From the NCBI GenBank assembly GCA_944385765.1, contig CALWYL010000003.1, positions 1-64,000 of the forward strand: a stretch of 64,000 nucleotides of DNA, in the 5' to 3' direction. The position numbers and the translations under genes are program-made. This DNA comes from an uncultured Oscillospiraceae bacterium. GTDB lineage: Bacteria; Bacillota; Clostridia; Oscillospirales; Oscillospiraceae. The notes beneath the pieces were generated by a model that was given only the letters and a program-made list of their open reading frames with translations, ran no database searches and was not told where the DNA came from. Below, piece by piece: positions 414 through 36,426 of the stretch; position 1 is the stretch's first letter; the number at the start of each line of letters is the position of its first letter.

Positions 414-1448
414 TCATGAATTATAGAGATTTTCTAGAATCTTGATCTCAATCTTTGTATGGAATATCTCTTTTTCCGGAGGAATGCCCATTCCCAAATA
501 GTCTAGAAGAATGTCCAGCGGCTTTGCGCCTTGAATGAACGGCTGCTGCTCAATAGTTGCGACAATTGATCCATCCTCTATTAGTGAGCAAGTGGATGGG
601 ATGGTGTCGTGGCTTATGACCTTAATCTTGCCTTTTCGGCCGAGATCTGATACTGCCCTGCATGCGCCGGATACACCGGCAGCTGAAAGATATAATGCGT
701 TGACCTCCGGGTGCCGCTCCAGGAAGTCGCGAGTTTTTGCATAACTCTCTATGTCATCGCTATGGTTGACTATGGTTTCGACTACGCGAAAACGGGAGCT
801 CTCCTCCTGTATCCGGCTTTTGAAACCTGATACACGTTTTTCATCACACAAAACCCATGGAGAGCCGATTATAATCCCGATACTGGTGTCTCCGGGAGAT
901 ATGAGCCTCATGAGCCCCCCGGCCGTTTGGCCACTTTTGTAGTCATCACTGCCAACATAGGCTATTCTACCGCAGTCGGGGATGTCATTGTTGGCTGTGA
1001 CAATTGGCACGCCCTTAGATGAGAGGTCTTTTAACTTATCAACAACAAGGGGGTGGTTGATCGCGATAATTGCGAGGCCGTCAAGCCCCCCGCTTTCCAA
1101 GTCTTCAATGGCGGAGATTTGGCTCTCCGGAGAACTCATCTCAGTTTGCCTGATGTCCACCCTTATGCCGTAGTTGACGAAGGACTCACGCCTCTCCTCA
1201 ATGCCTGAAACCACGTCTTTGAAAAAGGGATTTGTTTCCGTGTCGAAAAGAACATACCCGAATCTTAATTGTTTTTTGGCGATTGCAAGCCTTTTGCCGG
1301 CCAAGTTCGGAGTGTAATTCAGCGCGTTGGCAATGTTGAGAATCCTTTCGGCGGTTTCAAGATTTACAGAACCACGATTGTTCAGAACCCGGTCAACGGT
1401 TCCTCTGGAAACTCCGGCAATTTGCGCAATTTCTTTAATCGTCGGCAA
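414..1448 (-). CDS. LacI/GalR-family transcriptional regulator of the pentose operon
   Basis: DNA-binding repressor with an N-terminal LacI helix-turn-helix (PTIKEIAQIAGVSRGTVDRV, then LNNRG, residues 2-26) and a periplasmic-binding-like effector domain (about residues 58-340; GYVLFDTETNPFF, GLAIIAINHP, IAYVGSDDYKSGQTAGG). The family binds a sugar or sugar phosphate and releases its operator. I place the start at the TTG at 1446-1448, which has an AGAGGGG site 9 bases upstream. The in-frame ATG at 1479-1481 overlaps the -10 box of the gene's own promoter and so cannot be used. It is divergent from the xylose-type operon and flanked by two CTCGAG-centred operators, so it probably controls both directions. 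Effector is inferred to be a pentose. Confidence 0.85.
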   Translation of the reverse strand: MPTIKEIAQIAGVSRGTVDRVLNNRGSVNLETAERILNIANALNYTPNLAGKRLAIAKKQLRFGYVLFDTETNPFFKDVVSGIEERRESFVNYGIRVDIRQTEMSSPESQISAIEDLESGGLDGLAIIAINHPLVVDKLKDLSSKGVPIVTANNDIPDCGRIAYVGSDDYKSGQTAGGLMRLISPGDTSIGIIIGSPWVLCDEKRVSGFKSRIQEESSRFRVVETIVNHSDDIESYAKTRDFLERHPEVNALYLSAAGVSGACRAVSDLGRKGKIKVISHDTIPSTCSLIEDGSIVATIEQQPFIQGAKPLDILLDYLGMGIPPEKEIFHTKIEIKILENLYNS

Positions 1449-1479
1449 AACAACACACCCCTCTCTAGTGCTACATTCC

Positions 1480-1508
1480 ATTATAGGTATACAATCGTAT
1501 TTTGTAAA
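1480..1508 (-). promoter_or_regulatory. Promoter of the LacI-type regulator gene
   Basis: On the minus strand there is TTTACA (1503-1508), a 17-base spacer and a perfect TATAAT (1480-1485). The predicted transcript starts about 1473. This excludes the upstream ATG and supports the TTG start at 1448. The left operator lies just upstream of the -35 box. Confidence 0.75.
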
Positions 1509-1676: not shown

Positions 1677-1694
1677 AACGTGCTCGAGCACGTT
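1677..1694. promoter_or_regulatory. LacI-type operator, right copy (perfect 18-bp palindrome)
   Basis: AACGTGCTCGAGCACGTT is a perfect 18-bp palindrome centred on CG. It lies immediately downstream of the operon promoter. The shared core with 1527-1536 and the divergent LacI-type gene make this the probable main operator. Confidence 0.8.
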
Positions 1695-1769: not shown

Positions 1770-1785
1770 GAAATGGAGGGTAAAA

Positions 1786-2904
1786 ATGAAAAAAGTATTA
1801 GCGACAGTGTTGGCATTGCTCATGGCTTTCTCTCTGTATGGATGAGCCGCAGACGAACCGGCAAATGATACACCGAGTGCTGGTGAGACACCGGAAGAGG
1901 TGAATGAAGGGACAGAAACTGGTACGTTGGTAGGTGTTTCGCTTCCGACCAAATCACTGCAGAGGTGGAATCAGGACGGAGAGTATCTGCAGAATGCGCT
2001 GGAAGAGATGGGCTATGAAGTAGACCTTCAGTTTGCTGAGGACAAAACGGAGCTCCAGGTATCGCAAATAGATAATTTGATTACCAAAGGTGCAAAAGTG
2101 CTGATAGTTTGCCCCATTGACGTGAGCACTCTCACAAATGTTTTGGAGACGGCGAAAGAGCAGGGGATTACTATTATTTCTTACGACCGCCTGATAACGG
2201 ATACTGATGCGGTGGATTACTACGCGACGTTTGATAATAACATCATAGGCAAAATAATAGGTGAATATGTTGTGGACGAGCTGGGTCTGGAGGAGGGAAA
2301 CGGCCCGTTCAACATGGAGATAGTCTCTGGCCCCAATAGCGACGCCACTCGTGTTTTGTTTGAAGCCGCTGTTGGAGAGGTTCAGCCCTATATCGATAAC
2401 GGCCAGCTGGTAATTCGCTCGGGTCAGACAGACATGGAGCAGACAGCCACGCCGCTTTGGCAAGAAAAAGAGGCTCAGGCCAGAATGGACAATATCCTTA
2501 CCGCATTTTATGCCGACGAGCATCTCGACGCTGTACTTTGCCTAAATGACTCGACGTCTTTGGGCACGCAGTCGGCGTTGAAAGCTGCCGGATATGGCAC
2601 AGAGGACAACCCCATGCCCCTTATTACAGGTCAGGACTGCGACATTGCCAATGTAAAAGCTATCATAGCCGGTGACCAGTCCATGTCCGTGTTCAAAGAC
2701 ACCAAGATTTTGGCTGCAGCTGTTGCAGAAATGACAGATCAGATCCTTAAGGGGGAAACTGTCATGGTAAACGACACTGAGAATTACGATAATTTTGCGA
2801 AGATTGTTCCCTCCTATTTGATTGAGTCTAAGTTTGTGGATCAGAGCAACTGGGAAGAGCTGCTCGTTGACGGCGGATACTATACGGCGGAGGAGCTCGA
2901 GTAA
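1786..2904 (+). CDS. Sugar ABC transporter substrate-binding lipoprotein (CUT2, ChvE/XylF type), interrupted by TGA at codon 20
   Basis: Periplasmic-binding protein of the family-1 monosaccharide type. The mature domain (ETGTLVGVSLPTKSLQRWNQ..., YYATFDNNIIGKIIGEYVV, AVLCLNDSTSLGTQSALKAAG, ITGQDCD) resembles ChvE/XylF proteins that deliver pentoses or hexoses to a CUT2 transporter. The start ATG at 1786 has GGAGGG at 1775-1780. It begins a signal peptide MKKVLATVLALLMAFSLYG followed by TGA (1843-1845) and then AADEPANDTPSAGE. Other lipoproteins in this window read ...LAACGE, so the TGA sits exactly where the lipobox cysteine is expected. Read literally, the signal peptide is cut off. A restart at ATG 1900 would give a cytosolic protein. 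A point mutation (TGC/TGT to TGA) or a sequence error is most likely. The rest of the frame is intact, and the gene is first in the operon. Confidence 0.75.
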
Positions 2905-3030: not shown

Positions 3031-4578
3031 ATGAGTCAAGCACTTTTGAAAATGGAAAAAATCACAAAAGCATTCTCTGGCGTAAAGGCCTTGAATGAGG
3101 TGGATCTAGAAGTGCAGAAAGGCTCCATACATGCTCTCGTTGGAGAAAATGGAGCAGGAAAGTCCACACTGATGAACGTACTGAGCGGAGTTTACCCCTA
3201 TGGAACATACTCTGGGACAATTACTTATGAAAATGAAATTGCACGGTTCAGGACGATACATGACAGCGAGTCAAAGGGAATTGTGATAATTCATCAGGAA
3301 CTTGCCTTGATTCCGGAACTGTCAATTTACGAAAATATATTTTTAGGACACGAAAAATCGAGACTGGGCATTATAGATTGGAACCGGGAAAAGGAGGAAG
3401 CCAGATACTTTGCTGAAGAGGTAGGCTTACAGGAAGACATTTATACACCCTGCAAGTATCTTGGCGTCGGCAAACAACAGCTGGTAGAAATAGCGAAGGC
3501 TCTCTCCAAAAGCGTCAAGCTGTTGATAATGGATGAACCTACGGCGGCATTGAACGACAATGACAGCGAAGCACTTCTGGAGCTGATAGTTAAGCTCAGG
3601 CGTGAACGCGGAGTGACCGTCATTATAATCTCCCACAAGCTTAATGAGATTTTGAAGGTTGCAGACCGTATCACTGTGCTTAGAGATGGGAGCACTATCA
3701 CTACAATGGAGAATGATGGCACAATCTCGCAAAATAATGTAATCCGCAGCATGGTGGGACGGGATATGACAAACCTCTATCCGCCACACACAGCGGAGAG
3801 AAGAGATTTGGCCTTGGAAGTGAAAAACTGGGAGGTATATTCTCCCACTGTCGAAGGAAAGAAAATTGTCGATAGAGTCAGCTTCAAACTCCATTATGGA
3901 GAAATCGTTGGCATAGCTGGATTGATGGGAGCGGGAAGAACTGAACTCGCATTGAGCCTGTTTGGCAAAGCCTATGGAATAAATATTAAAGGGGAAGTAT
4001 TTAAAGATGGCAAGCTTTTGCGTCTGAATTGCGTGAAAAATGCCATAGACAATGGCATTGCCTATATACCCGAGGACAGAAAATTGTCAGGCCTCATCTT
4101 GGATGAGGATACTGTGACAAATATAAGCCTACCTAATCTAGAGCGGTTTAGCAAGCGTGGGGTTATGAATCATGCCGCTGAGGTAAGGGCGGCTGAGCGA
4201 TATACTGAGGAGATACACATAAAGTCTACTTCCGTGTTTCAAAAAACGCGTATGCTCAGTGGAGGAAATCAGCAGAAAGTCCTTGTGGCCAGATGGCTCT
4301 GTAATAATCCGGATATTCTCATACTGGATGAACCGACACGCGGTATTGATGTAGGAGCAAAGTATGAGATATATACCATCATTCAAGAGCTTGCAGCGTC
4401 TGGCAAAGCGGTCTTGTTTATTTCTTCTGAGCTGCCGGAAGTGATAGGTATGAGCGACAGAGTTTATGTAATGAACGAAGGTCGCTTTGTGGGTGAGCTT
4501 TGCAAAGAGGACATATCACAGGAAAAAATAATGCAGCTCATCATTGAAGATAACGGAGGTGACAAAAATGAGACGTGA
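3031..4578 (+). CDS. Sugar ABC transporter ATP-binding protein, double-domain CUT2 type
   Basis: 515-aa ATPase with two ABC domains, as in MglA/XylG/GguA. The first domain has Walker A GENGAGKST (about residue 38), LGVGKQQLVEIAKAL in the signature position and Walker B LLIMDEPTAALND. The second has the degenerate P-loop GLMGAGRTE usual for CUT2, signature LSGGNQQKVLVARWL and Walker B ILILDEPTRGIDVGAKYE. It powers uptake of the sugar bound by the upstream lipoprotein. The Shine-Dalgarno (GGGAG at 3016-3020) is modest. The end overlaps the permease start by 11 bases, so the two are translationally coupled. Closest relatives by motif are GguA/XylG; substrate is inferred as a pentose from xylA/xylB downstream. 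Confidence 0.92.
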   Translation: MSQALLKMEKITKAFSGVKALNEVDLEVQKGSIHALVGENGAGKSTLMNVLSGVYPYGTYSGTITYENEIARFRTIHDSESKGIVIIHQELALIPELSIYENIFLGHEKSRLGIIDWNREKEEARYFAEEVGLQEDIYTPCKYLGVGKQQLVEIAKALSKSVKLLIMDEPTAALNDNDSEALLELIVKLRRERGVTVIIISHKLNEILKVADRITVLRDGSTITTMENDGTISQNNVIRSMVGRDMTNLYPPHTAERRDLALEVKNWEVYSPTVEGKKIVDRVSFKLHYGEIVGIAGLMGAGRTELALSLFGKAYGINIKGEVFKDGKLLRLNCVKNAIDNGIAYIPEDRKLSGLILDEDTVTNISLPNLERFSKRGVMNHAAEVRAAERYTEEIHIKSTSVFQKTRMLSGGNQQKVLVARWLCNNPDILILDEPTRGIDVGAKYEIYTIIQELAASGKAVLFISSELPEVIGMSDRVYVMNEGRFVGELCKEDISQEKIMQLIIEDNGGDKNET

Positions 4579-5743
4579 CATAATAAAGCGACTACGCGGA
4601 GACACGAAAATAGATTTACGTCAGCAGTCGATGCTGATTGCCCTGATAGCTATCTCGGTCTTGTTTCAAATTCTAACAGGCGGAATAATCTTTAAGTCTG
4701 TAAACGTATCTAAACTAATCATGCAGAACAGCTATGTTCTTATACTGGCTGTGGGCATGCTGCCATGTATAATCACGGGGAATGTTGACCTATCAGTGGG
4801 CAGCGTATTGGCGCTTGTGAGTGCCATAAGTGGCAAAATGATTGTTGAATGGAATCTGCCCGTCGCTATCACTATACCAGTACTTTTGTTGATAGGCATT
4901 GCATGTGGAGCATTTCAGGCGTATTGGATAGCCTACACGAGGTTGCCGGCATTTATAGTTACCCTGGCGGGCCAACTTATATTTCGCGGCCTTACCATGA
5001 CGCTGTTGGAAGGAAGAACTTTAGCCCCTTTTCCGGAGTCATTTTCATGGATATCGGCTGGCTTCCTGCCGCAGTACAAAATAGGTAATGTTGATGTAAT
5101 AGCCGTGGGCCTAGGCGTCATCTGTTCGATCATACTGGTTATGATACAGGTCCACTCTAGAATGAAGTCGGCAAAATATCATGCGAAAAGGTCCCACACA
5201 GGCTTTTTTGTCGCAAAAATGGCCGTTCTGGTTTTCATTACCATCTTTTTTACGTATTGGCTTGGGACATACAATGGATTGCCGAGCGTGCTGATACTGA
5301 TGGTTGTCCTCATCATAATATATCAATTTATAACAAGCAACACTGTGCTGGGCAGGAGACTCTATGCCTTGGGCGGCAATGAAACAGCGGCAAAACTATC
5401 CGGTGTCAATACTAATGGCATACTGTTTTTGACATATGCAAACATGGGGCTTATGTCTGCGGTTGCCGCCATTGTGTTCACTGGAAGGCTGAACGCGGCG
5501 ACGCCTACTGCCGGCGTGAGCTTTGAGCTGGATGCGATAGCTGCGTGCTATATTGGCGGCGCATCTGCGACAGGCGGCGTGGGGACGGTTATAGGCGCTG
5601 TTATCGGGGGACTTGTCATGGGTATCCTCAATAACGGAATGTCGATACTGGGCATAGGAAGTGACTGGCAGCAGACCATCAAGGGCTGTGTGCTACTTGC
5701 GGCTGTTGCATTTGACGTGCTGTCAAAAAAGAACAAAAAATAA
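4568..5743 (+). CDS. Sugar ABC transporter permease, CUT2 (XylH/GguB type)
   Basis: Inner-membrane permease of 391 aa with about ten hydrophobic segments. It carries the family motif ITGNVDLSVGSVLALVSAIS (residues about 76-95) and the GGNETAAKLSGVNT cytoplasmic loop (EAA-like region) that contacts the ATPase. Length and the long mid-protein loop (HSRMKSAKYHAKRSH) fit the XylH/GguB group rather than the shorter RbsC group. The start is ATG 4568 with GGAGG at 4556-4560. An upstream in-frame ATG (4544) lies deep in the ATPase gene and has no ribosome site. It forms the transporter with the two genes before it. Confidence 0.92.
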   Translation: MRRDIIKRLRGDTKIDLRQQSMLIALIAISVLFQILTGGIIFKSVNVSKLIMQNSYVLILAVGMLPCIITGNVDLSVGSVLALVSAISGKMIVEWNLPVAITIPVLLLIGIACGAFQAYWIAYTRLPAFIVTLAGQLIFRGLTMTLLEGRTLAPFPESFSWISAGFLPQYKIGNVDVIAVGLGVICSIILVMIQVHSRMKSAKYHAKRSHTGFFVAKMAVLVFITIFFTYWLGTYNGLPSVLILMVVLIIIYQFITSNTVLGRRLYALGGNETAAKLSGVNTNGILFLTYANMGLMSAVAAIVFTGRLNAATPTAGVSFELDAIAACYIGGASATGGVGTVIGAVIGGLVMGILNNGMSILGIGSDWQQTIKGCVLLAAVAFDVLSKKNKK

Positions 5744-5788
5744 TCCCAATACTATACTATTTCTATATGACGAAGGAGAGTGCCTAAG

Positions 5789-7111
5789 ATGAACGAACAG
5801 AAGCAGAGAGTTATGAAGTGGATCGATGAGCACGAGGAAAACATCGTTGAGTTTCTTCGTGACATGGTGAAAATCCCGTCGGTGAACCCGGGTTTTGAGG
5901 AGGGCGAAAACGGGAATAAATCGGTGTGCCACGAGGGCGATTTGCAGAGATACATAAGGGCGCACATGGAGAAACTGGGTGCGGATATAGATATGTGGGT
6001 ACCCGATGTGGAGCATTTGAGAAAATATGAAGGGCAACCCAACTTCTATGATTTCCATGTGTTTGACGACCGCCCGAATCTCGCTGCCAGGCTGAAAGGT
6101 ACTGGCGGCGGCAAAAGCGTCATGCTGATGGGCCACGTTGACACCGTTAAAACGGGTGCCGGCTGGGTGCACGATCCATTCTCTGCAGATGTGGAGCAAG
6201 GCGTAATCTATGGACGCGGAGTGGTCGACATGAAGGGCGGCATTGCCTCCATGATAATGGCCACAGAAGCAATTATTAAGTCGGGGCTTAAGCTGAAAGG
6301 CGATGTTTGCGTCGGGACTGTGGTGGACGAAGAGACCGGTGGTATGGGTACGCTCGATTTTGTGGACCGTGGACACCGGGCGGACGTGTGCATAATGACA
6401 GAAGCTACCAGACAAATAGTTGCGCCACTTTGCCGCGGTATACTCTGGGGCAATATAGTAGTGGAGGGCAGAAGCGGACATATTGAGCTTCCCCAAAAGG
6501 ACTGGCGAGAGGGCGGTACGGTTGACGCTATTCGCAAGGCCCGTCTGATAATGGACGCGATAGACTGGCTGAATGAAGACTGGGCTCTGAGCAAGACTCA
6601 TCCTCTGCTCAAGATACCTAACCGGATAATCATTGGGCAAATCAATGGCGGCGAGTGGCATTCTACATTTGCAAATAAGTGTGATATGGCCTTCGATATC
6701 CAGTATCTTCCCTACGAGCGCGATGAACTGGGTGGGGGCGGCCGTGTAATAAAAGAGTTTGAGGACTTTATCCATGCGGTCGCACAGACGGACCCGTGGC
6801 TCAAGGAGCATCCGCCGGTTATCACTTGGTGCGTGAACTGTGATTGCGGCGAAACGCCCATTGACCACGAACTGGTACAGCTCTTCCTCAAAAATCAGGT
6901 GGAACAGGGATTGCCCTCTGTGGCCGAGGGGTGCTATTTCCATACGGATATGGGTTGGCAGGAAAAGGTCGGCATGCCCGTCGTGAACTACGGCCCGGGA
7001 GACCCCATATGCGCCCACCAGGACAATGAGTCTTTGAGCATATCAGATTTGATTCAGTGCACAAAGGTTCTCGCGCTTACAATCATGGATTGGTGCGGGG
7101 TTGAAGAGTAA
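5789..7111 (+). CDS. M20-family metal-dependent amidohydrolase/peptidase (ArgE/DapE-like)
   Basis: 440-aa M20 hydrolase. Visible metal and catalytic residues are GHVDTV (His and catalytic Asp), GRGVVDMKGG (bridging Asp), VDEETGG (catalytic Glu plus metal Glu), EA in IMTEATRQIV, and the last His in GDPICAHQDNE. These enzymes cleave N-acyl or peptide bonds using two zinc or similar ions. The start is ATG 5789, 8 bases after GGAGAG (5775-5780); the GTG at 5780 is too close to that site. It lies between a pentose transporter and pentose kinase/isomerase genes, an unexpected place for a deacylase. That suggests the imported compound may carry an acyl or aminoacyl group; this is inference. Confidence 0.88.
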   Translation: MNEQKQRVMKWIDEHEENIVEFLRDMVKIPSVNPGFEEGENGNKSVCHEGDLQRYIRAHMEKLGADIDMWVPDVEHLRKYEGQPNFYDFHVFDDRPNLAARLKGTGGGKSVMLMGHVDTVKTGAGWVHDPFSADVEQGVIYGRGVVDMKGGIASMIMATEAIIKSGLKLKGDVCVGTVVDEETGGMGTLDFVDRGHRADVCIMTEATRQIVAPLCRGILWGNIVVEGRSGHIELPQKDWREGGTVDAIRKARLIMDAIDWLNEDWALSKTHPLLKIPNRIIIGQINGGEWHSTFANKCDMAFDIQYLPYERDELGGGGRVIKEFEDFIHAVAQTDPWLKEHPPVITWCVNCDCGETPIDHELVQLFLKNQVEQGLPSVAEGCYFHTDMGWQEKVGMPVVNYGPGDPICAHQDNESLSISDLIQCTKVLALTIMDWCGVEE

Positions 7112-7178: not shown

Positions 7179-8561
7179 ATGAAAAATGTCGTGATAAAAG
7201 AGTGCCCGGCACGTATCATGAATGAAACTTGTGAAACACCGGTGGAATTGTCACCAGGTGTCTACCTAGACCGCCTGCTGAAGCTGCAAAGGCGCATCAT
7301 GGATAGAGGATTAGATTATGCCGTGCTATATGGTGACAGAGAGCACTTTGCCAATATTGAGTATTTCACACGCTATGACTGTAGATTTGAAGAGGCGTTG
7401 TTTATTTTAGGGGCGGACGGCTCCCGCAGCATCGTGGTTGGAAATGAGGGGGAGGCGTATTGCAGATACATACCGTATAAAGTAAACGTCATTCGCTATA
7501 GAGAATTCAGCCTGCAGGGGCAGCCCCGGGAAGGCTCCCCCCAACTGAGCGAAGTGTTCTCAGCTGCTGGAATAGATGAGGGGGCACATGTCGGCCTGGC
7601 GGGATACAAATACTTTGAGGATGAGAATTTATTTGATGTGCCAGAGTATATAGTCAATGAACTTCGCAGGGCAGCGGGCGAAGAAAATTTGGTTAATTTC
7701 ACTCGTGAATTGACAGGATTACCAGATGGGCTGCGCATGACTGTCCGCACCCCTGAGGAAATATCGGTTATTGCTTACCGCAGCGCAAAGGTTGCCAATG
7801 TCATGAGAAGGCTACTGAAATCTGCCGTGCCTGGAATGACGGAGGAGGAGCTGTCCGGACGTGGCGGTATAGACTTCTCGCCGCAGCAGACTCACTCCAT
7901 GGTGAACTTCGGTGAGGAATCAATAGCAATGGGGATCAAGAGCCCCAGCCCTTTTGTGCGTTTGGTTTATGGCGGGCCTATGAGCATCGCATATTCCCTG
8001 AGGGGCTCTCTTATGTGCAGAGCGGCTTTTGCCGCAGAAGACATGAGTACGATACGGCCTGAATTGCGCAAATACCTCGAGACGCATGTCATGCCATATT
8101 GGGCTGCCGTTGCACTTTGGTATGAAAAGATAGGCGTTGGGTGCTGCAGCGGAGAATTGTATGATTCTATCCACAGCATCATAGGCGGCCCAAGCTTTGG
8201 GTTTAGTTTAAACCCAGGGCACTATATCGGAGGAGACGAGTGGGTGAATTCAGCATTTGCGCATGGCTCCCCAATTCGCGTACACAGCGGTTCGCACATC
8301 CAATGCGATATAATAGCCGCGTCGCCCAATCCTGTGCTGAACGCGATTTGTGAGGATACGGTCGTTATAGCTGACAGCGGACTTCGAGCGGAACTGAAAG
8401 CGGAGTATCCGGCCCTTTATGATGAAATAATGATGCGTAAAACGTTTATGTGCGAATCGATGGGTATAGCGGTCAATGAGGATGTGTTGCCCATGAGTAA
8501 TATGAATGCCGTGATGTTCCCATATATGTTGAACAGCAAACTCATGTTTGCACTTGAGTGA
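7179..8561 (+). CDS. Degenerate M24/creatinase-like protein, probably without a dinuclear metal site
   Basis: 460 aa. Residues about 25-185 resemble the creatinase/prolidase N-terminal domain (RLLKLQRRIMDRGLDYAVLY, EYFTRYDCRFEEALFIL). Residues about 190-440 resemble the pita-bread M24 fold (MTVRTPEEISVIAYRSAKVANVMRR, GMTEEEL, NPGHYIGGDEW, ICEDTVVIADSG). Of the five canonical metal ligands (Asp, Asp, His, Glu, Glu), His348 and Glu392 appear kept. The two Asp positions fall in a divergent stretch (GGPMSIAYSLRGSLMCRAAF) and the first Glu appears replaced around HIQCD. It may thus be a metal-free hydrolase like creatinase, or a binding protein. The ribosome site GGAGGGGAAGAA is strong. Alignment by eye makes ligand mapping tentative. 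Confidence 0.6.
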   Translation: MKNVVIKECPARIMNETCETPVELSPGVYLDRLLKLQRRIMDRGLDYAVLYGDREHFANIEYFTRYDCRFEEALFILGADGSRSIVVGNEGEAYCRYIPYKVNVIRYREFSLQGQPREGSPQLSEVFSAAGIDEGAHVGLAGYKYFEDENLFDVPEYIVNELRRAAGEENLVNFTRELTGLPDGLRMTVRTPEEISVIAYRSAKVANVMRRLLKSAVPGMTEEELSGRGGIDFSPQQTHSMVNFGEESIAMGIKSPSPFVRLVYGGPMSIAYSLRGSLMCRAAFAAEDMSTIRPELRKYLETHVMPYWAAVALWYEKIGVGCCSGELYDSIHSIIGGPSFGFSLNPGHYIGGDEWVNSAFAHGSPIRVHSGSHIQCDIIAASPNPVLNAICEDTVVIADSGLRAELKAEYPALYDEIMMRKTFMCESMGIAVNEDVLPMSNMNAVMFPYMLNSKLMFALE

Positions 8562-8589: not shown

Positions 8590-10068
8590 ATGGCTTATTA
8601 TATAGGAATTGACCTGGGTACGTCATCCATCAAGCTGCTGCTGATGGATGAAAAGGGCAAGATATACAACGAGGTATCAAGGGAATACCCGCTGAGTTTT
8701 CCCCAACCCGGCTGGAGTGAGCAAAATCCTGAGGACTGGAAAAACGCCGTTTTCAAAGGCATTCCACAGCTTATGGAGGGCTTTGACTCAGCCCGGGTCG
8801 CTGGTATAGGTGTGGGAGGACAAATGCATGGGCTCGTCGTGCTTGACAAGAACGATAAAGTCATCCGGCCCGCGATACTGTGGAATGACGGGCGCACTGC
8901 GGTTGAGACAGACTACCTGAATGGGACCATAGGCGAAAAAAGAATAGCGGAATTCACAGCTAATATGGCATTTGCGGGGTTCACGGTGCCAAAAATCCTA
9001 TGGCTCAGAGAAAATGAGCCTGAAAGATTTCTGAGAATAAGAAAGATAATGCTGCCCAAAGACTATGTTAACTACATATTGACAGGAGTGCACAGTTGTG
9101 ATTTCTCGGATGCCTCTGGCACGCTGCTTCTAGACGTCAAAAACAAGAAGTGGAGCCAAGAGATGTTGGACGTATGTGGCGTCTCGATGGACTGTCTGCC
9201 GGAGCTTCATGAAAGTTATGAGGTAATAGGCACGCTTCTGCCTGATATTGCCGAGAAATTGGGATTGCCCAAGACGACTAGGGTGTGTGCCGGGGCTGGT
9301 GACAACGCGGCTGCAGCTGTAGGCACGGGTATTGTGGGGGATGGCGGATGCAATATTTCCCTCGGAACATCGGGCACTATCTTCATATCGTCAAGGGACT
9401 TTATAGATTTAAGCAATCATGCGATACATAACTTTGCTCACGCTGACGGCGGCTGGCATCTCATGGGCTGCATCTTGTCAGCAGCCTCCTGCTACTCATG
9501 GCTTATGGATAGGGTCTATAAGTCACCTGACTATACTCTGGAACAAGTGCCCATAGTCGATGAGATGCTTGGCAGAAACCGTGTATTCTTTTTGCCGTAC
9601 TTGATGGGCGAACGCAGCCCCATAAATGATGTTGATGCCAGAGGAACATTCATTGGGCTTGCAATGGATACTGGACGCGCTGACATAACACAAGCGGTTA
9701 TGGAAGGCGTTGCTTTTGCCATCCGTGACTGTGTTGAAGTTGCGAAATCATTGGGAATCAGCATCTACCGGAGCAGACTATGCGGCGGTGGGGCACGAAG
9801 CGAGCTGTGGCGGAAAATATTGGCGAATGTTCTGAATATAGAATTAGAAATTCCGAGACTTGAGCAGGGGCCCAGTATGGGCGGCGCAATACTGGCAATG
9901 GTGGCCTGCGGAGAATATACAACTGTTCAGACTGCTATAGCCAAGCTTGTGCATGTTGAAAACACAATCAAACCGGAGCCTGAGCTAGTATCCAGATATG
10001 AGATATGCTATCGCAATTTCAAAAAAATATATCCTGCGCTGAAAGAACTGTACAAAGAAATACGATAA
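8590..10068 (+). CDS. xylB: Xylulokinase
   Basis: 492-aa FGGY-family sugar kinase: D-xylulose + ATP to D-xylulose 5-phosphate, entering the pentose phosphate pathway. The N-terminal phosphate-binding motif is YYIGIDLGTSSIKLLLMDEK. GVGGQMHGLVVLDKND is a xylulokinase hallmark, and CGGGARSELWRKILANVL is the C-terminal FGGY signature region. Length is normal for XylB. The ribosome site (TTTAGGTAAAATGCT) is weak compared with its neighbours. It sits 12 bases upstream of xylA in the same operon, which supports the xylulose assignment over other FGGY substrates. Confidence 0.93.
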   Translation: MAYYIGIDLGTSSIKLLLMDEKGKIYNEVSREYPLSFPQPGWSEQNPEDWKNAVFKGIPQLMEGFDSARVAGIGVGGQMHGLVVLDKNDKVIRPAILWNDGRTAVETDYLNGTIGEKRIAEFTANMAFAGFTVPKILWLRENEPERFLRIRKIMLPKDYVNYILTGVHSCDFSDASGTLLLDVKNKKWSQEMLDVCGVSMDCLPELHESYEVIGTLLPDIAEKLGLPKTTRVCAGAGDNAAAAVGTGIVGDGGCNISLGTSGTIFISSRDFIDLSNHAIHNFAHADGGWHLMGCILSAASCYSWLMDRVYKSPDYTLEQVPIVDEMLGRNRVFFLPYLMGERSPINDVDARGTFIGLAMDTGRADITQAVMEGVAFAIRDCVEVAKSLGISIYRSRLCGGGARSELWRKILANVLNIELEIPRLEQGPSMGGAILAMVACGEYTTVQTAIAKLVHVENTIKPEPELVSRYEICYRNFKKIYPALKELYKEIR

Positions 10069-10080
10069 GGAGGGGAAAAT

Positions 10081-11394
10081 ATGTATTTTTCAAATATTCC
10101 GGCCATACGATATGAAGGACCCAATTCCAGGAACCCTTTGGCATTCAAATTCTATGATGCTGACCGCGTAATCATGGGCAAGCCAATGAGAGCGCACCTG
10201 CCTTTTGCAATGGCGTGGTGGCATAATATGTGTGCTTGTGGGACAGACATGTTCGGCGGAGACACGGCCGACAAGTCTTTTGGCGCAGAAAAGGGAACTA
10301 TGGCACATGCTCGGGCAAAAGTTGATGCGGGATTTGAGTTCATGCAGAAACTCGGCATACCGTATTTTTGCTTTCATGATGTCGATTTGGTCCCGCCGGC
10401 AAAAGATATCCGGGAAACTAACAGGCGGCTTGACGAAATATCCGACTATATGCTGGAAAAAATGCAGGAAACCGGTATTAGATGTCTGTGGGGTACGGCG
10501 AATATGTTTGCAAATCCCCAGTACATGAATGGAGCGGGCTCATCCAACTCAGCTGACGTGTTCTGTTTTGCTGCAGCTCAAGTCAAAAAAGCTTTGGATA
10601 TTACAGTAAAACTGGGCGGAAAGGGCTACGTGTTCTGGGGTGGCCGAGAGGGTTACGAGACGCTGTTGAACACTGATGTGAAATTCGAACTGGAGAATAT
10701 CGCGTCTCTTCTGAGAATGGCCGTAGAATACGGCCGCAAAATCGGCTTCACTGGAGACTTTTTTATCGAACCCAAGCCTAAAGAGCCAATGAAGCATCAA
10801 TATGACTTTGATGCGGCGACGGCGATAGGTTTCCTGCGGCAATATGGCCTTGATAAGGACTTCAAACTGAATATTGAGGCCAACCACGCCACGCTTGCGG
10901 GACATACGTTCCAGCACGATCTGAGAATTGCGGCCATCAATGGAATGCTGGGCAGTATCGACGCAAATCAGGGCGATCCTCAGCTGGGATGGGACACAGA
11001 CGAGTTTCCGTTCAACGTCTATGAGACCACTATGTGCATGTATGAGGTGCTGAAGGCCGGAGGCGTGGCAGGGGGTTTCAATTTTGACGCAAAAAATCGC
11101 CGCCCTTCCTATACCGATAAGGACATGTTCTACGCATATATTTTGGGCATGGATGCCTTTGCATTGGGCTTGATAAAAGCGGCAAAGCTGATAGACGATG
11201 GTAGAGTTGACTCGTTTATGGCCGAACGCTATTCCAGCTATAGTAGAGGTATTGGCCTGAAAATACGTTCAAAAAACGTTTCGCTTGAAGAACTGGCGGA
11301 GTATGCCGAGAGAACCGGAAAGCCGGAACTGCCGGGGTCAGGCAGGCAGGAATATTTGGAGAGTATTGTGAATTGCATTTTGTTTTCTGAGTGA
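10081..11394 (+). CDS. xylA: Xylose isomerase
   Basis: 437-aa class II xylose isomerase: D-xylose to D-xylulose, with two divalent metal ions. Visible family features are [11 protein letters not shown] (catalytic His region), [17 protein letters not shown] (metal Glu), [19 protein letters not shown] (metal Glu and His) and [20 protein letters not shown] (metal Asp). Length and sequence fit the long clostridial form. The start has a strong site (AAGGAGGGG, 10073-10081 region). It is the last gene of the operon and is followed by a large hairpin. Together with xylB it defines D-xylose, or a xylose-releasing compound, as the substrate. Confidence 0.96.
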
Positions 11395-17194: not shown

Positions 17195-18457
17195 TCAGAT
17201 GACCTCGATGGTGATGTTGGGCAGCACGCCGTTCAGGCTGGCGGCGTCGTCCATGTCGGTGTCGTCAACCGGGTAATCGGCTTCGACCACGAGGGAGCCG
17301 TCCTTCATGGCGGCGATCTGGGCCTCGTACTCCTCGACGGTGTAGTTGGTGAGGCTCCAGGTCTCGGTGGGCAGGCCGACGGCGTCGTCGGTGGCGCCGA
17401 GGGTGGTGGTGGCTCCGCCTATCTCATCCCAGGTGCCCTCGTAGAAGTGGGTCAGGGCGACCTCGGCGGCCTGGGCGATGCCCTTCATGGCGGAGGTGAT
17501 GACGGTATCGCTGTCGCCGCTCTGGTCGACGTCGACGCCGACGACCAGGCCGTCATTGGCGGAGGCGGCGCTGGAGATGGACTCGAACATGGAGCCGCCG
17601 CAGGCGAACACGACCTCGGTGCCGGTGGTGTACCAGCCGTTAATCATGGTCTGCAGGTCCGGGGAAGCGGTGAAGTTGGCGCCGTACTGCCAGCTGTACT
17701 TCACATTGACGTCCACGCCGGCCTCAGCAGCCGCGGCGCTGGCGCCCTGGAGGAAGCCGTAGCCGTAACGGCAGCAAGCCGGGTTGGTGCCGCCGCCGCC
17801 GCCGGAGAAGCCGAGCTGGGTGTAGCCTTCCTTGACAACGGCGTAGCCGGCCAGGTAACCGGCCTGCTCCTCCTGGAAGTTGATGCCGGCGACGTTGGTG
17901 AGGATGTTGCCCTCAACGTTCGGGTCGGGGTCGTCGTCCAGATAGTAGCCGTCGATGAACACGAACATGACCTCGGGGTTGTTCATGGCGCAGGTGCGCA
18001 GGGCGGCCTCCTGCAGGAAGCCGGCGCAGACCACTATTTTGGCGCCGTTGTTGACGGCGTCCTGCATGGCGTTGACACGGTCGTCGTCGGTGGCCTGGTC
18101 GCCGTTGGCGGGCTGATAGTACTTGTAGGTCAGGCCGTTGTTGTAGGCGTAGAGCTTCACGCCGTTCCAGGTGCCCTCGTTGAAGGACTTGTCGTGCAGC
18201 AGGCCGACGTCGGTGACGAAGGCGACCTCATAGGTGCCGTCATCAGAGGTGATGTTGTCCTCTATGGAGTTGGCGTCGGTGACTGCCTCGGGGGTCTCCT
18301 CCTCAGGGGGGGTCTCCTCATCGGGGGTCTCGCTCTCGGCGGGAGCGGGCTCTTCGCTCTCGGCGGGGGCGGGGCTCTCCTCAGAGGGCTCCTCGCCGCA
18401 GGCGGCGAGCGCGAACACCATCATGAGGGCCAGAATCAGAGCAAGAAACTTCTTCAT
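17195..18457 (-). CDS. BMP-family ABC transporter substrate-binding lipoprotein (PnrA/BmpA type), probably nucleoside-binding
   Basis: 420 aa. Signal peptide MKKFLALILALMMVFALAAC has the lipobox LAAC (Cys about residue 20). An acidic, Pro/Glu/Ser-rich linker of about 50 residues comes next (EESPAPAESEEP...). The BMP domain has VAFVTDVGLLHDKSFNEGTWNG, the family DKSFN motif, and VVGVDVDQSGDSDTVITSAMKG. BMP proteins mostly bind purine nucleosides for a CUT2-like transporter. The next three genes (deoD, udk, tdk) are nucleoside-salvage genes, which fits. No ATPase or permease gene is adjacent, so those must be elsewhere. The start is ATG 18455-18457, 12 bases after GGAGG. Confidence 0.9.
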   Translation of the reverse strand: MKKFLALILALMMVFALAACGEEPSEESPAPAESEEPAPAESETPDEETPPEEETPEAVTDANSIEDNITSDDGTYEVAFVTDVGLLHDKSFNEGTWNGVKLYAYNNGLTYKYYQPANGDQATDDDRVNAMQDAVNNGAKIVVCAGFLQEAALRTCAMNNPEVMFVFIDGYYLDDDPDPNVEGNILTNVAGINFQEEQAGYLAGYAVVKEGYTQLGFSGGGGGTNPACCRYGYGFLQGASAAAAEAGVDVNVKYSWQYGANFTASPDLQTMINGWYTTGTEVVFACGGSMFESISSAASANDGLVVGVDVDQSGDSDTVITSAMKGIAQAAEVALTHFYEGTWDEIGGATTTLGATDDAVGLPTETWSLTNYTVEEYEAQIAAMKDGSLVVEADYPVDDTDMDDAASLNGVLPNITIEVI

Positions 18458-35553: not shown

Positions 35554-36426
35554 ATGAAAAAGCTGACCGCACTTCTGCTGGCGCTGTGCATGGTCTTTGC
35601 CCTGGCCGCCTGCGGCGAGGACGCCGAGACCGCCGAGAGCGCCGCCCCCAGCGAGGAACCCGCCGAGAGCGCGGCTCCCAGCGAGGAGCCCGCCGAGAAC
35701 GAAGAGCCCGCCGCCGAATCCGGGTTCACCACCGTGGAGGAAGGCAAGCTCATCATGAGCACCAACGCCGCCTTCCCGCCGTATGAGACCACTGACGACT
35801 CCGGCGCCGTTATCGGCATCGACCCCGAAATCGCCGCCCTTATCGCCGAGAAGCTGGGCCTTGAGCTGGTCATCGACGACGTCGATTTCGACTCCGCCCT
35901 CCTCGCCGTGCAGCAGGGCAAGGCCGACATGGTCATGGCCGGCGTCACCGTGAACGAGGACCGCCTCGCCGTCATGGACTTCACGGCCTCCTACGCCACC
36001 GGCGTGCAGGTCGTCATCGTCCCCGAGGACAGCGACATCGCCGACATGGACGGCCTCGAGGGCAAGCTTATCGGCTGCCAGCGCGGCACCACCGGCTACA
36101 TCTACGCCTCCGACACGCCTGAGAACGGCGGCTACGGCGACGAGAACGTGATTGCCTACGACAACGGCATCACCGCCGTCGAGGCGCTCAAGAACGGCCA
36201 GGTTGACGCGGTCATCATCGACAACGGCCCCGCCAAGGAGTTCGTCGAGGCCAACCCCGGACTGAAGATACTCGAGACACCCTGGGTCGAGGAGGAGTAC
36301 GCCATTGGCCTGAGCAAGGCTGACAGCGCCGACGCGCTCAACGAGGCCATCAGCAACGCCCTGCAGGAGCTGATAGACGACGGCACCGTGCAGAGCGTGC
36401 TCGACAAGTACATCACCGCCGAGTAA
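35554..36426 (+). CDS. Polar amino-acid ABC transporter substrate-binding lipoprotein
   Basis: 290-aa family 3 solute-binding protein. Signal peptide MKKLTALLLALCMVFALAAC has lipobox LAAC. An acidic linker with the repeat SAAPSEEPAE comes next. Then the binding domain: LIMSTNAAFPPYETTDDSGA, GIDPEIAALIAEKLGLELVIDDVDFDSALLAVQQGKADMVMAGVTVNEDR, GCQRGTTGYIYA, DNGITAVEALKNGQVDAVIIDNGPA. Family 3 covers Arg/Lys/His, Gln/Glu and cystine. Ligand is not determined; an ArgR-like box hints at basic amino acids. The ribosome site is AAAGAGGA. Confidence 0.92.
   Translation: MKKLTALLLALCMVFALAACGEDAETAESAAPSEEPAESAAPSEEPAENEEPAAESGFTTVEEGKLIMSTNAAFPPYETTDDSGAVIGIDPEIAALIAEKLGLELVIDDVDFDSALLAVQQGKADMVMAGVTVNEDRLAVMDFTASYATGVQVVIVPEDSDIADMDGLEGKLIGCQRGTTGYIYASDTPENGGYGDENVIAYDNGITAVEALKNGQVDAVIIDNGPAKEFVEANPGLKILETPWVEEEYAIGLSKADSADALNEAISNALQELIDDGTVQSVLDKYITAE

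Follow-up and report, generated by a model that had tools for sequence, protein, structure and literature searches.

A lone in-frame TGA at the lipobox cysteine position of an otherwise intact ChvE/XylF-type sugar-binding lipoprotein gene

The closest described system to the locus reported here is the ChvE-GguAB multiple-monosaccharide ABC transporter (CUT2), which has the same binding protein-ATPase-permease gene order and whose GguB component is matched above the NCBIfam cut-off. Two other known classes resemble it in a different respect. Recent single-lesion bacterial pseudogenes (nonsense null alleles) combine one stop with an otherwise intact frame and intact orthologues, as does our gene. 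Bacterial selenoproteins, in which UGA specifies selenocysteine (Sec), likewise have an in-frame TGA aligned with the cysteine of their homologues. The lipobox needs the thiol of its cysteine for diacylglycerol transfer. Here we describe a sugar-binding protein gene with a TGA at exactly this position, located in a window of 64,000 nucleotides (the whole stretch of DNA analysed) from an uncultured Oscillospiraceae bacterium.

The frame from ATG 1786 to TAA 2904 on the + strand comprises a signal peptide, TGA 1843-1845 as codon 20, and then 352 open codons. The stop TAA 2902-2904 ends the sugar-binding frame, which has no internal stop besides the TGA. Its features are as follows.

1775..1780, + strand: GGAGGG, Shine-Dalgarno-like, upstream of ATG 1786 (from the sequence)
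1786..1842, + strand: coding stretch of the signal peptide MKKVLATVLALLMAFSLYG, with L-Y-G before the missing Cys; lines up residue by residue with MKKFLALLLALVMVFALAAC of same-genus homologues
1843..1845, + strand: codon 20, a TGA in frame where the lipobox cysteine should be; TGC at the same place in the closest relative (L200/G171)
1846..2904, + strand: linker, then the sugar-binding domain of ChvE/XylF type, intact; 352 aa, ending in TAA (PF13407, NF040907, PDB)

Shuffling the whole frame gives about 20 stops on average and as few as one in 0 of 2000 shuffles; the frame is thus coding. The 352 residues match Pfam Peripla_BP_4 (PF13407; 4.7e-52, 177.5 bits), and the best solved relatives of the domain are PDB 4ys6, 4wwh and ChvE 3urm, with ChvE structures at 6e-99. 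The score against NF040907 (ChvE) is 437 bits, below the cut-off of 460, so the protein is ChvE-like and not ChvE proper. The Peripla_BP_4 domain and a neighbourhood of CUT2 ATPase and permease genes, both present, place it in the ChvE/XylF type. As sequenced, no cysteine follows the hydrophobic core, LYG being succeeded by the TGA. The remaining signal-peptide features are present, together with a linker that is long, acidic and rich in P/T, as lipoproteins typically have. Translation thus bears out the initial annotation, which had described a signal peptide ending LYG, a TGA in frame with ATG 1786, and an intact binding domain with its own upstream ribosome site. The two other lipoproteins with LAAC that it had noted in the window are real (18398-18457, - strand; 35554-35613, + strand). 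The gene is that of a sugar-binding lipoprotein, otherwise intact and recently functional.

Relatives were sought in samples of 300 family and 391 class genomes. The closest one in those samples is G171, from the same family (82-83% identity), whose N-terminus reads MKKCITIALALTLTLALFGC (LFGC) with TGC as the Cys codon. In the same-genus homologues, Cys at residue 20 occupies the TGA position. An in-frame TGC or TGT is found at the site in nearly all of the 57 closer loci, the exceptions being two signal-peptidase-I type ends and one locus cut by a contig end. A search of relatives for the same codon, which had been proposed from the outset, gave no stop at the lipobox site in any of these 57 loci. 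The Cys codons of the relatives agree with the proposal that the TGA lies at the lipobox cysteine position; a single substitution from TGC or TGT explains it. Several of the more distant relatives are of the signal-peptidase-I type and nearly linker-free. Since the window protein, unlike these, has the long acidic P/T-rich linker, Cys was likely the former residue at codon 20.

The binding-protein gene (SBP) heads a cluster with the order divergent LacI, SBP, ATPase, permease, M20, Creatinase_N-like, XylB and XylA.

414..1481, - strand: LacI-family regulator, divergent, intact (PF00356, 54.2 bits)
3031..4578, + strand: GguA/XylG-like sugar ABC ATPase, intact (NF040905, 770 bits, cut-off 810)
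4544..5743, + strand: GguB-like permease, intact; the listed ORF begins at TTG 4544, a start near 4568 being likely (NF040906, 510 bits, cut-off 450)
5780..7111, + strand: M20 / ArgE-DapE family hydrolase, intact (TIGR01910, 229.5 bits, over cut-off)
8590-10068, + strand: xylulokinase, intact (TIGR01312, over cut-off)
10081-11394, + strand: xylose isomerase, intact (TIGR02630, over cut-off)
1678..1693, + strand: palindrome ACGTGCTCGAGCACGT, candidate LacI-type operator; core conserved upstream of the relative's gene

The product of ORF 7179-8561 (460 aa) weakly resembles Creatinase_N (E 0.005) but has no match above cut-off in Pfam or NCBIfam and none in the PDB; it is kept beside the M20 hydrolase in G171 (65%). 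The spacer that separates the operon from the divergent LacI regulator contains two copies of TGCTCGAGCACG (1528-1539 and 1678-1693), the second of which falls inside the perfect palindrome ACGTGCTCGAGCACGT; the G171 operon is preceded by a nearly identical core. Judged from these sequences, the sites are probable operators of the divergent LacI-type regulator. The SBP leader contains a seven-codon ORF at 1726-1749, MSSFVLM with stop TGA, directly preceded by a strong AAAGGAGG. This ORF has no evident counterpart in front of the G171 gene and may encode a leader peptide or have arisen by chance. A strong inverted repeat, found as a self-match, lies between the SBP and ATPase genes (2959-2995), a gap that is the usual place for an intercistronic stem-loop favouring binding-protein expression.

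Across the eight genes of the cluster, TGA 1843-1845 is the only internal stop, and Cys is encoded by TGC or TGT at 58 codons. TGA terminates four of the eight, namely lacI, the ATPase gene, ORF 7179-8561 and xylA, in line with the earlier remark that neighbours use TGA as a genuine stop. RF2 is intact (prfB, 498 bits, over cut-off). We reject a general change of the UGA code on account of the single in-frame TGA in eight genes, the four genes that end in TGA, and the presence of RF2.

Decoding of UGA at this one site, as selenocysteine or as Cys by a suppressor tRNA, would give a full-length lipoprotein, and would fit both the exact coincidence with the Cys position and the full constraint on the downstream protein. 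The organism's own genome comprises 1.93 Mb in 86 contigs (97.3% complete), one of which, C30, starts within a tRNA cluster. SelA (TIGR00474) has no match in this genome, the best SelB match (TIGR00475; 170 bits, cut-off 242) is EF-Tu, and the best tRNA-Sec match (RF01852; 45.7 bits, cut-off 47) is tRNA-Ser(UGA). A UCA anticodon is found in 0 of the 39 tRNAs found. As tRNA-Cys and tRNA-Trp are also absent from this set, it is incomplete, and so is the tRNA evidence taken alone; assembly breaks at tRNA clusters probably account for these two absences. It is extremely unlikely that a tRNA missing from the incomplete assembly translates the UGA as Cys or Sec, with a lipidated product gated at the lipobox codon.

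Downstream of the TGA, at a permitted distance, lies a weak hairpin, which would favour decoding. The bacterial SECIS model has G in the first two loop positions and 16-37 nt spacing (PMC13188914), and the apical loop of the hairpin, AUACAC, has no G at its first two positions and does not fit this model. The folding energy of the RNA after the TGA is unremarkable relative to shuffles (z -0.8 to -1.6). In a pattern scan of the genome, an MKK-signal-peptide-like stretch ending in TGA occurs once, in this gene alone; the same pattern with a Cys codon has 31 matches, a few of which are plainly not signal peptides. Among the matches listed for 400 family genomes, we found no second case of a signal-peptide-like stretch with TGA. 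The pattern used there took no account of reading frame and matched many stretches; the listed matches that shared the frame of the ATG were judged by eye, and 0 encoded a hydrophobic signal peptide, which is not a clean count. A literature search for a Sec lipobox found nothing relevant. We reject selenocysteine on account of the missing SelA, SelB and tRNA-Sec and the lack of a SECIS match. With plain Cys codons in the relatives as well, decoding of the UGA in any form appears very improbable. The initial annotation had advised searching for selA, selB, selC and a SECIS structure, all with negative outcome here; its default reading of a disabled transporter or a sequence error stands, and the recoding that it thought would be remarkable is unsupported.

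The age of the lesion was approached by comparison with G171. The binding proteins differ by a dN of 0.11. Because synonymous sites are saturated even against this closest relative, only dN and relative-rate counts were used. With G490 and G552 as outgroups, the binding protein has 7-8 amino-acid changes on the window branch versus 16-18 on that of the Cys-bearing G171. Acceleration is likewise absent from the ATPase, permease and regulator. Across 57 highly conserved columns there are 4 departures in the window protein and 4 in its closest relative. Even if all 8 changes arose unconstrained, the unconstrained period would, by a rough estimate, amount to no more than a few per cent of the branch. 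The single lesion and the lack of relaxed or accelerated divergence lead us to reject an old, decayed pseudogene. Since the protein beyond the TGA shows no decay, the stop is either very recent or not real.

The cluster differs in composition from its surroundings. The window from 1 to ~11.7 kb has 46-50% GC and a GC3 near 0.5, whereas the adjoining host-like contig has 63-70% GC, and clear host genes farther along have a GC3 near 0.9. The binding-protein gene lies 1.8 kb from the contig end, and no host sequence is seen to the left of the cluster. In G171 (L257), lacI, SBP, ATPase, permease, M20 and the Creatinase_N-like gene stand in identical order; xylAB is absent there. The G171 copy also sits in a GC-poor stretch within a GC-rich contig. 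From this shared order and setting, the cluster is probably a horizontally acquired sugar-utilisation unit that occurs in the family, rather than random foreign DNA. That a second genome of the family carries this cluster makes a wholly foreign chimera, with a putative junction at ~11.4-11.8 kb, less likely. A mis-join or strain blend at the contig end is still conceivable.

We favour, with some reserve, the reading that the lone nonsense variant at the lipobox Cys is a very recent, real null allele in the strain. The single in-frame TGA is followed by 352 open codons, and the closest relative with the same gene order has TGC at the site. Accelerated decay is absent, RF2 is present, TGA stops the neighbouring genes, and there is no Sec machinery. 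A second ChvE-type binding protein was not found in the genome at E 0.001, which also supports a null allele. A fresh lesion without other decay is equally the appearance of a consensus error, however, and both the contig-end position of the gene and the atypical composition of its segment make strain mixing or mis-assembly more likely. The TGA would then reflect an error of one base in the consensus or assembly, or a strain blend, and the cells would carry an ordinary Cys codon; this is a real possibility, although not the one we prefer. The undiminished constraint on the downstream protein, the lack of a second lesion in the gene or cluster, and a contig-end segment with GC unlike the rest of the genome all speak for it. 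The sequence itself bears no mark of error, and when the window's host-type portion was roughly scanned, no other suspicious in-frame stop came up, the one match being a normal gene boundary.

Returning to the null allele, we infer that the TGA is truly present in the DNA of the cells and that the transporter is disabled. Translation would end with the signal peptide of 19 residues, leaving the transporter its ATPase and permease but no receptor. UGA is the leakiest stop, and GTG 1900 opens a 334-codon frame, so that low-level readthrough or a downstream start might give some binding protein. GTG 1900 has neither a signal peptide nor a well-spaced ribosome site, and its product, lacking the signal peptide, would be cytosolic; readthrough that inserted anything but Cys would yield a protein without the lipid. 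We regard either route as highly unlikely.

As sequenced, this pentose-type ABC transporter is without a receptor, which has little importance beyond annotation. Automatic annotation would misplace the start at GTG 1900 or miss the signal peptide. The locus also illustrates how a stop in place of Cys can mimic recoding, and which quick tests tell the two apart. Compared with ChvE-GguAB, it has a stop at the lipobox of the binding protein, and its ChvE and GguA scores are slightly below the curated cut-offs. In contrast to bacterial selenoproteins, it has no selA, SelB, tRNA-Sec or SECIS match, and the residue concerned is a lipidation site, not a redox site. From recent single-lesion pseudogenes it differs only in that, by coincidence, the affected codon is that of the lipobox Cys. 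The evidence points to an ordinary, fresh mutation that abolishes function, or to an error of one base in the sequence, and not to a new way to read the genetic code.
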